Shown: one piece after another, positions 1,837 to 38,193 of the stretch | Layout: every line of letters starts with the position of its first letter | Numbering within the stretch: position 1 is the first letter of the stretch | Source: an uncultured Desulfobacteraceae bacterium | GTDB lineage: Bacteria; Desulfobacterota; Desulfobacteria; Desulfobacterales; UBA5852 | Direction: 5' to 3' | Length of the DNA stretch: 64,000 nucleotides | Assembly (NCBI GenBank): GCA_913060875.1 | Contig: CAJXSL010000013.1 | Coordinates: forward strand, 1 to 64,000 | Translations under genes and position numbers: made by a program | The notes under the pieces: generated by a model | Database searches by the model: none | Told to the model about the DNA's origin: nothing | The model's input: the letters and a program-made list of their open reading frames with translations, nothing else

Positions 1837-2634
1837 TCAGTAGATGATTTTGGGGTATATCCGGTCGAAGCGGCGCAGGAGCCGCAGGGCCACCATCAGG
1901 ATCAACAGGGACAGCAGCACCAGCAGCAGCAGGGTCTGCCAGTCCGGCGGCAGTCCCTTGAGCAGCAAGGATCGGTACATGTCGATCAGGGCGGCCATGG
2001 GGTTCAAGCCCAGATACTGGCGGATGGATGCGGGCAATTGGCTGATGTCGAAGAAAATGCCTGAAAGAAAAAAGAGCATGAGCAACAGGTTGTCCAGGAT
2101 GACCCGCAGGTCCGGGAAAAAGGGCATCAGGGCGGCCAGCAGGCAGGTCAGCGCCACGATGAGCAGCAACTGGGCAGCCACCAGCACCGGAAGCAGCACC
2201 CAGGCCGGCGAAAGCTGGACAGGGGTGAACAGCAGAAAAATCAGGAACAGCGCCAGAATGATGAGAAACTTGAAGGTGTTGACCGCGATGTTGGTCAGCG
2301 GGAATATGATTTTGGGCACATACACCAGGTTCATCAGGCCGGCATTGTTCATCAGGCTGCTGGCCCCGCTATTGAGCGTGGCCTGGAACCACTTCCAGGT
2401 GATGAGACCCGTCAACAGGAACATGATATAGTTTTCATCGCCCCGGTGCATCAGGTGGGCGAACACCGTATAGAAAATGCTCATGTACATGACCGGCTCG
2501 ATGACCCACCACAGCACCCCCAGATATCCCCGCGAAGCCTCGGCCCGCAACCCGGCTCTGGCCTCCTGCACGACCAGGTCGATAAAATAGCGCCAGTTGC
2601 GTCTCCGTTGGAGGGCGGCGGTTTTGCTACTCAT
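1837..2634 (-). CDS. ABC-2 type polysaccharide export permease (Wzm/KpsM-like)
   Basis: A 265-residue inner-membrane permease with about six hydrophobic segments after the N-terminal sequence RRRNWRYFIDLVVQEARAG, a pattern shared by ABC-2 glycan exporters (Wzm, KpsM, TagG). It pairs with the Wzt-like ATPase encoded next. The start was set at ATG 2634 because GGAG lies about 10 bases upstream and the product then has the normal family N terminus. The frame stays open to 2754, which would add about 40 unlikely residues. It is the first gene of the minus-strand operon, and the nearest upstream regulatory element is the riboswitch at about 3.5 kb. Confidence 0.85.
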   Translation of the reverse strand: MSSKTAALQRRRNWRYFIDLVVQEARAGLRAEASRGYLGVLWWVIEPVMYMSIFYTVFAHLMHRGDENYIMFLLTGLITWKWFQATLNSGASSLMNNAGLMNLVYVPKIIFPLTNIAVNTFKFLIILALFLIFLLFTPVQLSPAWVLLPVLVAAQLLLIVALTCLLAALMPFFPDLRVILDNLLLMLFFLSGIFFDISQLPASIRQYLGLNPMAALIDMYRSLLLKGLPPDWQTLLLLVLLSLLILMVALRLLRRFDRIYPKIIY

Positions 2635-2754
2635 TTGCGATATTGCTCCAGCTTCTGTCGTGGAAAACCAATCAATTTTGAGCGATCCATTCCGCAGACC
2701 AACTGGGCTGAGGCCCGCGCGCAACTCGGGCCTGTTGTCGCCAAACACCGTCAT

Positions 2755-3420
2755 GTGAGGGGAAAACGCCGGCGAAACTCAAGCTGCCGCCGGAAAGCGC
2801 TGCTCGAAAAGCCGCTTGGGACGGGTCGCCTGAGAAGAGGGCCAACGATCGCTTGTGCGCACGGAAACACGGACGCACCGGCGTCGATGGTGCTGCTCTG
2901 CTAATGGCTCGATCGGTAATGCGTCAAAGCGTATCCGGGGGGTGATTTTTTGAAAAGCGCCGGCTAATAATCAGGAGGGTGGGGTCCCCCAAACGGATTC
3001 CGGCGTGGACATTGCGTCGGCACGCCCTGGGGAGCCAGCTCCGCCTTGCCGATTACCGATCGAATATTAATTTAACTATTTGAAAAAATTAGACTATTGT
3101 TAGAGCGTCGGCCTGTTGGGGCTTAAGCTGTGTTCTCGGCTGAAGGTTCACGCCGACCGATCTGAACGCGTGGACTTTCGGTTTGTTTCCGGCAGAACAC
3201 CCGCGGGTCTTCCGGCAAAAACAATGCGCACGCAACGCACCAACTGGGAGCAGGAGGTGCTCATTCGGTCCAGGATCTATTTGTAATGGTCTTGTCGATG
3301 CCTGCCGCCGCCGAACCCAAGCAGAACTGACGCTACCAATACGGCCAATTCAAAAATTTCTTATCTGCAGCACCATTTCCAATGGCTGATAAAAAACCAC
3401 ATCTTACCGGTGCCCAAAAA
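2755..3420. other. Intergenic region, no convincing gene
   Basis: About 660 bp between the permease gene and the terminator at 3416-3452. Short open frames exist on both strands but none has a ribosome site or recognisable protein features. An AT-rich block at 3065-3105 might hold a promoter, but no clear -35/-10 pair is visible. If the riboswitch transcript reads through, this is a long leader for the export operon. Confidence 0.5.
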
Positions 3421-35437: not shown

Positions 35438-35642
35438 ATGCAAACGAATGTCTCGGTTGTGATGGTGAAAAGAAAAAAATTTCGAAACAGGACGTGGACG
35501 TACACGACAATTATTAGATGGAATGAAAAAAGAAATAAATTTAGAATTTGAAAGAGAGATTAAACAAAGCGAAAGAGTCCGCAAACATGCGCTTCAACGA
35601 GGACATTGCACCTGCGGTTCACGAAGATACAGCGCCCATTAA
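35438..35642 (+). pseudogene. Possible frameshifted small cassette ORF
   Basis: A GAGGAGG site precedes ATG 35438. The frame ends after 37 codons, but a one-base shift at the A7 run near 35475 joins it to a second open frame that ends at 35642 with RGHCTCGSRRY, just before an attC-like GTTAGCT. The joined product would be about 68 residues. No homolog recognised; it could equally be noncoding. Confidence 0.3.
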
Positions 35643-35656
35643 GGCGGGCGTTAGCT
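35618..35656 (+). other. attC-like 3' half site (left cassette boundary)
   Basis: gcgcccattaaggcgggcgttagct: a short hairpin followed by GTTAGCT, which fits the integron recombination core GTTRRRY at six of seven positions; GGCGGGCGTTAGC is typical of attC 3' ends. The downstream gene starts 20 bp later, as expected for a cassette. A clear left half is not seen. Confidence 0.45.
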
Positions 35657-35676
35657 GTAAATAAATAGGAATAACC

Positions 35677-37623
35677 ATGAAAATCGAATCTGTAAGAATA
35701 GAAAACTTTAGAAGTTTCAAGGATGAGACAATAAAGCTTGATAACTATACCTGTCTTGTCGGTGCGAATGGTTCAGGGAAATCAACTGTCTTAAATGCTT
35801 TGAATGTGTTTTTTAGGCAGTATAAAGACAGCAAAACAGATCTCAGTAAACTAACCAGTGAAGATTTTCATCACAAAAATACAGGGAACCCAGTAAAAAT
35901 CACAGTCACTTTCACAGATCTCTCTGAAGCCGCAAAAGAGGACTTGTCAGATTACGTAAGGCAGGACAAGTTGATTGTTTCTTCTGTAGCAAAATATGAT
36001 TCAGAAACAGATTGTGCAGAGGTGAGACAATATGGAATTCGGTTAGGCCTACAAGATTTTCGGAAATACTTTGAAGCAGATAAAAACGGAGAGAAAGTTT
36101 CAGAATTGAGGATTATATACCAAGGCCTGAAAAATAAATATCCCGACTTACCTAAGCCAGGAACAAAAGGTGCGATGGGCGATGCTCTCAATACATATGA
36201 AGCGAACCATCCGGATGATTGTGGTTTGATTCCAAGCGAAGATCAGTTCTATGGAATCAGTAAAGGAGCCAACAGATTAGCTAACCATATGCAGTGGGTA
36301 TTCATTCCTGCATCAAAAGATGCCACAGAAGAAACAGAAGAATCAAAGAACACGGCTTTGGGGCAATTATTAGCGAGAACTGTTAGGTCAAAGGTAAATT
36401 TTTCCGAAAAAGTTGGAAAACTAAAAAGGGACACACAAGAAGAATATCAAAAAATATTGGACGAGGAACAATCTGTATTAGATTCAATATCCTATTCATT
36501 AGAAAATAGTTTAGAATCTTGGGCACATCCTGGTATCACTGCTCAAGTTCTTTGGAAACAGGATTCTGATAAGTCAGTAAAAGTTGAAGAGCCTTGGGCA
36601 TATCTTAAAATTGGTGAGAGAGGCTTTGAGGGTGATTTAGCAAGATTTGGACATGGCTTACAACGGTCATATATGCTTGCTTTGCTCCAAGAATTGACCA
36701 AACTTTCTGATGAAACAGCCCCAACATTGATAATGGGAATTGAAGAACCAGAAATTTACCAACATCCGCCTCAAGCAAAACATCTTGCAGAAACCTTAAA
36801 TGATCTCTCAGCAAAAGACTCTCAAATATTGATTTGTTCACATAATCCATTATTCATACCCAGTGACAATTTTGAAGCAATAAGAGTGGTAAGAGAAAAG
36901 GACAATCCTAGCACGTCCTATATTTCTCAACTTTCATATGTTGACTTGTCTGATAAGCTTAAATCATCAGGACAGAAAGCACTAAAAGAAGAAGGGATGT
37001 TAGCAAAACTGTATCCGTCTCTCAATCCAATAATTAACGAGATGTTTTTTTGCAATAATTTGATTTTAACTGAAGGCATAGAAGATGTTGCATTCGTCTC
37101 AACATATTTGATGCTCACAGAAAAGATTATGGATTTTAGGAAATATGGCTGCCATATTGTCCCCGTTGGAGGGAAAAGCTCAATTATTAAACCTTTGGCA
37201 ATGGCTCAACTACTGAATATTCCCGTTTTTGTCATTTGCGATGCCGACACAGACAAAGATGAAATAGAGGACGAGAATAGAAGAAAATCTGAAGTAGGAA
37301 AGCACAAAAAAGATAATCGAACGATTCTAAATCTATTGAATTACAAGGACTTGAATGAATGGCCAACTGATTCAATTATCAAAAATAATTTATATATGTG
37401 GAAAAATAATCTAACAAAAATAATTGAAGATGAATTTGGTAAAGATTGGAAGATATATCAAGATTCAGCGTATGATTATTATGGGAACCCAGGAGGATTA
37501 AAGAAAAATCCTATTACAATTGCACGTGCTTTAGAATCAGCGTGGGGAAATGGTTTAAAATCTACTTCGCTTGTAAAATTGGTTGAATCTATTGTTGATT
37601 TTGCAAAGAAAAAAGACAGCTAA
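35677..37623 (+). CDS. OLD-family ATP-dependent nuclease (AAA ATPase plus TOPRIM), on an integron-like cassette
   Basis: A 648-residue protein: SMC-like ATPase N terminus with Walker A GANGSGKS (residues 29-36), Walker B region GIEEPEIYQHP (about 355-365), and a C-terminal TOPRIM domain with LTEGIEDV (about 464) and CDADTD (about 522), acidic residues that bind metal for DNA cleavage. OLD nucleases act in phage defence alone or with partners (GajA, retron Eco8). No UvrD-like helicase, reverse transcriptase or other partner adjoins it. The gene is AT-rich unlike its surroundings. Its stop codon lies inside an attC-like site and its start is 20 bp from another, the hallmark of gene cassettes. 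Confidence 0.82.
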   Translation: MKIESVRIENFRSFKDETIKLDNYTCLVGANGSGKSTVLNALNVFFRQYKDSKTDLSKLTSEDFHHKNTGNPVKITVTFTDLSEAAKEDLSDYVRQDKLIVSSVAKYDSETDCAEVRQYGIRLGLQDFRKYFEADKNGEKVSELRIIYQGLKNKYPDLPKPGTKGAMGDALNTYEANHPDDCGLIPSEDQFYGISKGANRLANHMQWVFIPASKDATEETEESKNTALGQLLARTVRSKVNFSEKVGKLKRDTQEEYQKILDEEQSVLDSISYSLENSLESWAHPGITAQVLWKQDSDKSVKVEEPWAYLKIGERGFEGDLARFGHGLQRSYMLALLQELTKLSDETAPTLIMGIEEPEIYQHPPQAKHLAETLNDLSAKDSQILICSHNPLFIPSDNFEAIRVVREKDNPSTSYISQLSYVDLSDKLKSSGQKALKEEGMLAKLYPSLNPIINEMFFCNNLILTEGIEDVAFVSTYLMLTEKIMDFRKYGCHIVPVGGKSSIIKPLAMAQLLNIPVFVICDADTDKDEIEDENRRKSEVGKHKKDNRTILNLLNYKDLNEWPTDSIIKNNLYMWKNNLTKIIEDEFGKDWKIYQDSAYDYYGNPGGLKKNPITIARALESAWGNGLKSTSLVKLVESIVDFAKKKDS

Positions 37624-37689
37624 CAAATCACCACGCTGGAATTTTACACCGCTGCGCTCCATAAAAACCTGTGAGTTCAAGCGTTAACC
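37618..37689 (+). other. attC-like recombination site
   Basis: 72 bp from AGCTAAC to GTTAACC, with TCAC near the left end and GTGAGTTCAAGC before the right core. The string TCAAGCGTTA is the same as in the well-known aadA cassette attC. The OLD gene stop (TAA) is within the left core, and the next ATG is 15 bp after the right core. Both outer cores deviate by one or two bases from consensus. Confidence 0.6.
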
Positions 37690-37704
37690 AATAGAGGATT
37701 ACAA

Positions 37705-37953
37705 ATGAAACTAAATGAATACTTATTGCTGTTTTCAAATGAAGGAGCAACCAAGGTGCAGGTTAAGTTCAAGGACTTTGACGGTACTGTTGTGACTCAG
37801 TCAATGGAGCCACGCGAAATTGTACGACTTGTTTCACCTGAAAACGGTAAATTTATGACATCTATGACTTTCGATGAGTGGCCATTTGAAGTCTATAAAT
37901 ATGAAATTGATCCAATTAAGGACATAGTTACCATACGTGCCAGAAAAAAGTAG
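37705..37953 (+). CDS. Small cassette-encoded protein, unknown function
   Basis: An 82-residue AT-rich gene starting 15 bp after the attC-like site, with GAGG before the ATG. The product (MKLNEYLLLFSNEGATKVQV...) looks like a small beta-rich soluble protein; no family recognised. Typical integron cassettes carry such orphan genes. It is not an evident antitoxin or nuclease partner. No clear attC follows it. Confidence 0.65.
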   Translation: MKLNEYLLLFSNEGATKVQVKFKDFDGTVVTQSMEPREIVRLVSPENGKFMTSMTFDEWPFEVYKYEIDPIKDIVTIRARKK

Positions 37954-38134
37954 ATACAGAACAATGGAGACACAGAAAGGGTCGTATCTTAACCATTAAT
38001 TATTCACCCAAACCGGTTCAACCGACCCCGAATTTTCATGAAAAATTGTGGATAAAGAAGGAAACGCCACTCATTTTTCAACAGATACCCGGCGATCCCA
38101 GCCTGTCCCGTCTGCAATCGCAGATTGAATTAAA

Positions 38135-38158
38135 CCGAATATTTCATGAAATGTTCGG
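38135..38158. repeat. Minimal palindrome of repeat family A
   Basis: ccgaatatttcatgaaatgt plus tcgg: the two ends of the family A element directly abutting, with no internal sequence. It lies 36 bp upstream of the methyltransferase start. The 37954-38134 gap before it shows nothing else. Confidence 0.65.
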
Positions 38159-38193
38159 GGTAAAGTTTTTGACCCTTTATCAGAGGATCAAAA

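Follow-up and report, generated by a model that had tools for sequence, protein, structure and literature searches.

The OLD-family gene and its core sites

In the genome of an uncultured Desulfobacteraceae bacterium, a gene for an OLD-family nuclease lies between short motifs of the kind found at integron recombination sites. This raises the question of whether a likely phage-defence gene reached this locus as an integron gene cassette, and whether it could still leave it. The window, meaning the whole stretch of DNA that was analysed, is 64,000 nucleotides long and contains the following features:

35651..37683, forward strand: integron gene cassette of 2033 bp, from the T of the 5' core to the G of the 3' core (cleavage G/TT), delimited by core-to-core DNA homology and unrelated flanks
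35650..35656, forward strand: 5' core GTTAGCT, the exact reverse complement of the R'' box AGCTAAC
35677..37623, forward strand: OLD-family ABC ATPase-Toprim gene, 648 aa, intact (PF13175, 3.3e-49; PF20469, 2.8e-13)
37618..37689, reverse strand: decayed attC, from R'' AGCTAAC to R' GTTAACC, the bottom strand being the recombining strand
37683..37689, forward strand: 3' core GTTAACC, comprising the right cassette end and the first bases of the right flank, placed by sequence and by the end of homology
37705..37953, forward strand: 82-aa gene without a family match, adjoining the cassette and probably part of the flank

The predicted protein has the N-terminal ABC ATPase and the C-terminal Toprim domain with acidic residues that define the OLD family, as seen in its Pfam matches, motifs and fold. 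Present are the Walker A motif with K35, IEEPE and SHNP, as well as the EG and DxD residues of Toprim (E466, D522 and D524), and these positions are nearly all invariant among relatives. The best solved relative, by both sequence and predicted fold, is the OLD protein of T. scotoductus (6p74; sequence E 1.8e-21), to which the model (mean pLDDT 79) aligned with Z 21.1 and rmsd 6.1 over 465 residues. Regarding defence models, the best match was Old (PADLOC, 1.8e-54), followed by AriA and GajA. A dN/dS of 0.11, obtained against three close relatives, indicates that the gene is maintained by purifying selection.

The original prediction, made from the letters of the sequence, had described this gene as an integron-like cassette in an AT-rich segment, with no integrase in the window. 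Its motifs were all found in place: the 5' core lies 20 bp upstream of the OLD start (35677), AGCTAAC at 37618-37624 contains the OLD stop codon TAA (37621-37623), and the 3' core lies 15 bp upstream of the 82-codon gene. The likeness to an aadA attC was also recovered, since TCAAGCGTTA at 37677-37686 is the right end of the aadA7 attC too. The segment has a GC content of 0.35-0.43 in surroundings of mostly 0.50-0.65. No integron integrase is encoded anywhere on the window's contig (C13), relics being present only on contigs C4 and C2, and the locus is thus not a complete integron, which has an integrase gene beside the cassette.

Motifs of this kind are weak evidence alone, even though the complementarity between the 5' core and R'' is 7/7. 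Among 318 GTTR cores in the window, 32 have an exact reverse complement 0.5-2.6 kb downstream; with about one core in ten paired within 2.6 kb, core pairs by themselves prove little. A strict RYYYAAC/GTTRRRY pattern search gave fewer matches than its reversed control, and an Rfam scan of the region returned only sub-threshold chance matches. At the same offset before the start codon, a GTT occurs in the homologous loci L040 (GTTCGCT) and L050 (GTTAACT), and a GTC in L038 and L039. A small hairpin, TACAGCGCCC..GGGCgttaGCTGTA, spans the cassette 5' core at 35628-35659 and may be the remnant of an older site or a product of chance.

Homologous loci and the state of the attC

Since short cores alone are weak, the significance of the cassette assignment comes from comparison with three loci encoding proteins 86-90% identical to OLD (L038, L039 and L040), which were used to determine the limits. 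DNA homology with L038 covers 35650-37618, and with L039 and L040, the two that retain the 3' end, it runs from core to core (35650-37685 and 35649-37686, respectively), both loci being unrelated to the window flanks outside this stretch. The G/TT core limits are therefore common to homologous copies in other contexts, which is the mark of a cassette. L040, a 3.2-kb contig in a metagenome-assembled genome whose binning may be wrong, has an attC (AGCTAACAAATCACTGCACTGGTTTTTACTCCGCTGCGCTCCGTAAAAACCAGTGAGTTCAAGCGTTAGAT) of full architecture: its bottom strand folds into an R box, a 5-nt unpaired spacer, an L box in which one base is extrahelical, and a long terminal stem. On its 3' side follows a TIR-domain gene (PF13676, 5.7e-27), at whose end lies a second attC. 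In a further locus, L046, a homologue about 55% identical to OLD lies, together with a 75-aa gene, between two unrelated, quite different attCs that fold well (-27.1 and -18.5 kcal/mol), and the core GTTAGCC matches an R'' GGCTAAC. Cassettes have thus carried members of this protein family alongside no fewer than two unrelated attCs.

OLD relatives of 45-90% identity were found in records named Smithella, Deltaproteobacteria, Gracilibacteria, Nitrospirota, Parcubacteria, Syntrophomonas, Elusimicrobia and Coriobacteriaceae, among others. Within the phylum, a relative at E <= 1e-100 is present in 2 of 395 genomes, the bacterium's own included. This wide taxonomic spread combined with rarity in the phylum is a strongly horizontal pattern. 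Relatives on plasmids reached at most 28% identity, and none were found in viral contigs.

The site at the 3' end of the window cassette is 88% identical to the L040 attC (E 5e-18 in a search of this genome), with both R boxes intact and 20 of the 23 stem pairs kept, three being broken. The bottom-strand fold of 37618-37689, proposed at the outset as a check, proved no better than those of shuffled sequences (z 0.24). Two covariance models were applied: R1, derived from 14 attCs with the homologous L040 site among them, and R2, derived without that site. In the window R1 gave one match, the 3' site (21.4 bits, E 0.0038), and no second; genome-wide, all its other matches fell in two integron arrays. 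The window result is that of the default run, since a search with filters off missed the window site, the match being probably longer than the model's search window. R2 recovered the L040 attC (29.9 bits, 3.9e-5) and did not match the window site; the L039 copy is decayed too (15.7 bits with R1, no match with R2). A ranking of constrained folds across the window was swamped by GC-rich chance pairs. Given its 88% identity to the L040 attC, yet a random-level fold and the miss by R2, the window site is an attC by ancestry that has decayed, and excision of the cassette is probably no longer possible.

The original prediction was to fall if attC covariance models rejected the sites and homologous loci carried the same genes without them. 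The independent R2 does reject the window site, but the homologous loci carry OLD with a strong attC, so the cassette idea stands on the core-to-core homology with L039 and L040 and on the ancestry shared with the L040 attC. Two other parts of it do not hold: the element can hardly be called mobile with its attC decayed and both integrase genes of the genome dead, and the supposed cluster of attC sites is reduced to the one site detected in the window, with no left attC.

No left attC was detected, even when a short stretch was searched, and the fold of the supposed left site carried no signal; with one attC, the window also lacks the at least two that define a CALIN. A search with the joined flanks for an empty site gave no match spanning the junction. 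The 82-aa gene had no family in domain, defence-model or further searches, and its relatives (L101-L103) occur outside cassette contexts. R1 found no attC after it in the window, and the expected R'' GGTTAAC is absent there; this gene is probably flank and not demonstrably a cassette. In the genome of a sister species (G003) the downstream methyltransferase gene is conserved, with homology from 38168, and other genes lie upstream. Two short repeats at 38129-38165 and 37972-38006, one of them palindromic (TTTCATGAAATGTTCGGGG), recur in many genomes of the order.

The conserved attC family and the origin of the cassette

The genome contains two integrons elsewhere, both dead. The main one, on contig C2, comprises about 23 attC matches in 16 kb (G000:C2:199954-216277, L133) among small cassette-type genes to which the searches assigned no function; an integrase remnant lies at the array end, where the apparent last 20 codons of the gene (VMIYTHVVSKNRHGVVSPLD) adjoin the array. 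On C4, an integron integrase (353 bits) is without a start and holds a TGA, and is co-oriented with cassette genes carrying three attCs (G000:C4:250854-253205; L011, L012). A sister species possesses an intact integrase of the same-orientation type with an attC. In the sister species G003, attCs occur on separate contigs (C42:135531, C14:5698 and C73:230222; L135-L137), at least one of them beside an integrase-like fragment. The common native attC type of the genome, TAACCTGGCGCTTGAG...CTCAGCTTAGTCGTT, is unlike the OLD attC, so the cassette, which sits outside the arrays, probably came from another source.

A search with the L040 attC gave matches in 20 of the phylum's 395 genomes, mostly at 85-97% identity; plasmids, phages and viral contigs yielded none. 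The OLD-type attC is a near sequence-invariant family standing at the ends of unrelated genes, including the following copies:

L146: attC copy of a retron RT-Toprim I-C gene (1.2e-221), with the gene stop inside the R'' box
L150:438-4013: attC copy with a type III restriction subunit gene (1.5e-139) before it and a CBASS cyclase gene (2.1e-129) directly after R'
L149: attC copy of a gene for a ParE-type toxin
L154, L157: attC copies of TauE transporter genes
L144: attC copy of a gene for a PNPOx-like protein

The flanking R'' and R' boxes differ among copies. Of 10 copies tested, 6 have the reverse complement of R'' upstream, just before the gene start in most of these, where about 0.2 would be expected by chance for each. 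R2, untrained on this attC type, finds the copies in L144, L149, L152, L156 and L157. Two of the copies (L145 and L151, around 2500-3050) hold group II introns at TTTGT|, opposite to the cassette direction, as expected of attC-targeting introns. A link between group IIC introns and integrons is described in PMC7923331.

Taken together, the OLD gene with its attC is very probably a former integrase-moved cassette, presumably inserted here at a GTT, its attC having since decayed and OLD having been kept as a presumed single-gene defence. The cassette limits, attC ancestry and attC family in this explanation come from comparison, and the attG-type insertion is deduced. An integron integrase would formerly have moved a cassette of one OLD gene and its attC; insertion would have taken place outside the genome's own arrays at a GTT of an attG-type non-integron site (Loot et al. 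2024, as cited in PMC11023631), rather than the cassette surviving as the last of an array. The attC would then have decayed and the resident integrases died, the OLD protein being retained by purifying selection. With a decayed attC and both resident integrases dead, the cassette is now probably fixed.

The most serious competitor, a real possibility though short of an even chance, is that a former array (CALIN) stood here, of which the OLD cassette is all that can still be recognised, the left core being the end of a decayed upstream attC and the 82-aa gene a second cassette with a lost attC. Both flanks are AT-rich, the left one ends in AAGGCGGGCGTTA as do many attC right ends, the 82-aa gene begins 15 bp past the core, and scattered attCs occur on several contigs in the genus. 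On the other hand, no left attC is detected even in a short stretch, neither an attC nor the R'' expected from such a cassette follows the 82-aa gene, and relatives of that gene live outside cassettes. It is much less probable that the cassette still belongs to a working pool and is moved by an integrase in trans: the retained stem pairs (20 of 23), the intact R boxes and the intact integrase of a sister species would allow it, but the fold of the bottom strand is no better than random and neither integrase of this genome is intact. The unusual conservation of the hairpin across genomes could also be that of a terminator-like or REP-like repeat ending several genes, OLD having been acquired by another route, a reading that is hardly credible because the varying R''/R' flanks match the upstream core in 6 of 10 copies, homology breaks at GTT on both ends, the hairpin contains group II introns as attCs do, and several copies are recovered by R2, which was built from other attCs.

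Any novelty may lie in the conserved attC family with several defence genes. As a tentative and on balance rather unlikely extension, this near-invariant attC type, common to many families of the phylum, would be the signature of small cassettes that circulate as a pool rich in phage-defence genes, scattered either singly or within mixed arrays; the defence genes concerned are OLD, the retron RT-Toprim and the type III restriction subunit, with the TIR gene and the CBASS cyclase gene directly after such sites.

Predicted phage defence and related systems

The OLD cassette contains no partner gene, and the neighbours of OLD are a TraB/GumN gene, the 82-aa gene and a methyltransferase gene. A domain search found no helicase or reverse transcriptase domain among them, which places OLD in class 1 by context (class definition in PMC10568477). 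Gabija, a class 2 OLD system, was considered and rejected, as the downstream genes lack a helicase domain and there is thus no GajB. The proposal that the gene is a single-gene anti-phage effector is supported, as a likely function, by Pfam, by the PADLOC Old match and by the sequence and fold likeness to 6p74; OLD would accordingly defend against phages as one gene. In P2 Old, inhibition of RecBCD elicits a response, and tRNA is degraded (PMC12904381), and YbjD gives anti-phage phenotypes upon induced expression (PMC13261556). By analogy with P2 Old, infection may trigger the protein through a similar signal, whereupon the activated Toprim nuclease would cut nucleic acid and stop the phage or the infected cell.

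A function in DNA repair or another cellular process is an improbable alternative. Some OLD relatives do lie beside SbcD-like nuclease genes (L043, L049), and an archaeal OLD with a cell-cycle role is cited in PMC13261556, but the best PADLOC match is Old, the gene is rare (2 of 395 genomes at E <= 1e-100), and homologues adjoin type II-A retron genes (L041, L045) or lie inside a type I restriction locus (L051). At these loci OLD relatives directly precede NDT_II-A genes of type II-A retrons (L041:4993-7038 and L045:4501-6632) or an NDT-like gene (L051:5029-5586), a pairing of OLD with NDT that recurs in three phyla.

OLD resembles the class 1 proteins P2 Old, 6p74 and E. coli YbjD (PMC10568477, PMC13261556) in combining ABC ATPase and Toprim in a single gene with no helicase or reverse transcriptase beside it. 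It differs from 6p74, its closest solved fold, in length (648 versus 528 aa) and shares 21% identity with it in the structural alignment, and it differs from the class in that close homologues at other loci have retron or restriction genes beside them. The same two-domain fold (Z 16-20) is seen in GajA of Gabija and in the OLD effector of retron Eco8, but neither a GajB helicase gene nor one for a reverse transcriptase or an ncRNA was found at the OLD locus. Single-attC CALINs are recognised as possibly true (IntegronFinder 2.0, PMC9024848) and likewise have an attC without a neighbouring integrase; the IntegronFinder default requires two attCs (PMC9024848), and the attC of the OLD cassette is decayed besides. 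That integrons carry defence cassettes is established for Vibrio, and there are reports of it from other hosts (PMC12409362, PMC12444791). Those of the Vibrio chromosomal integrons (Darracq et al. 2025, Getz et al.) share with OLD a small defence-type gene as a cassette with its own attC, whereas the OLD cassette is lone, decayed, outside any array and in another phylum, carries an OLD gene, and has an attC of a conserved type with no match in plasmid or phage collections.

Likely phage-defence genes thus travel as integron cassettes in this phylum too. The idea of defence cassettes, so far tied to Vibrio and other known hosts of integrons, is thereby extended to a phylum that has been little studied, with an OLD nuclease as a further cargo. 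The locus also presents a cassette that outlives its integron, the recombination site rotting while selection continues to act on the likely defence gene. Owing to its conservation, this attC can serve as a simple sequence probe for finding more defence cassettes, among them decayed ones that are missed by attC covariance models.
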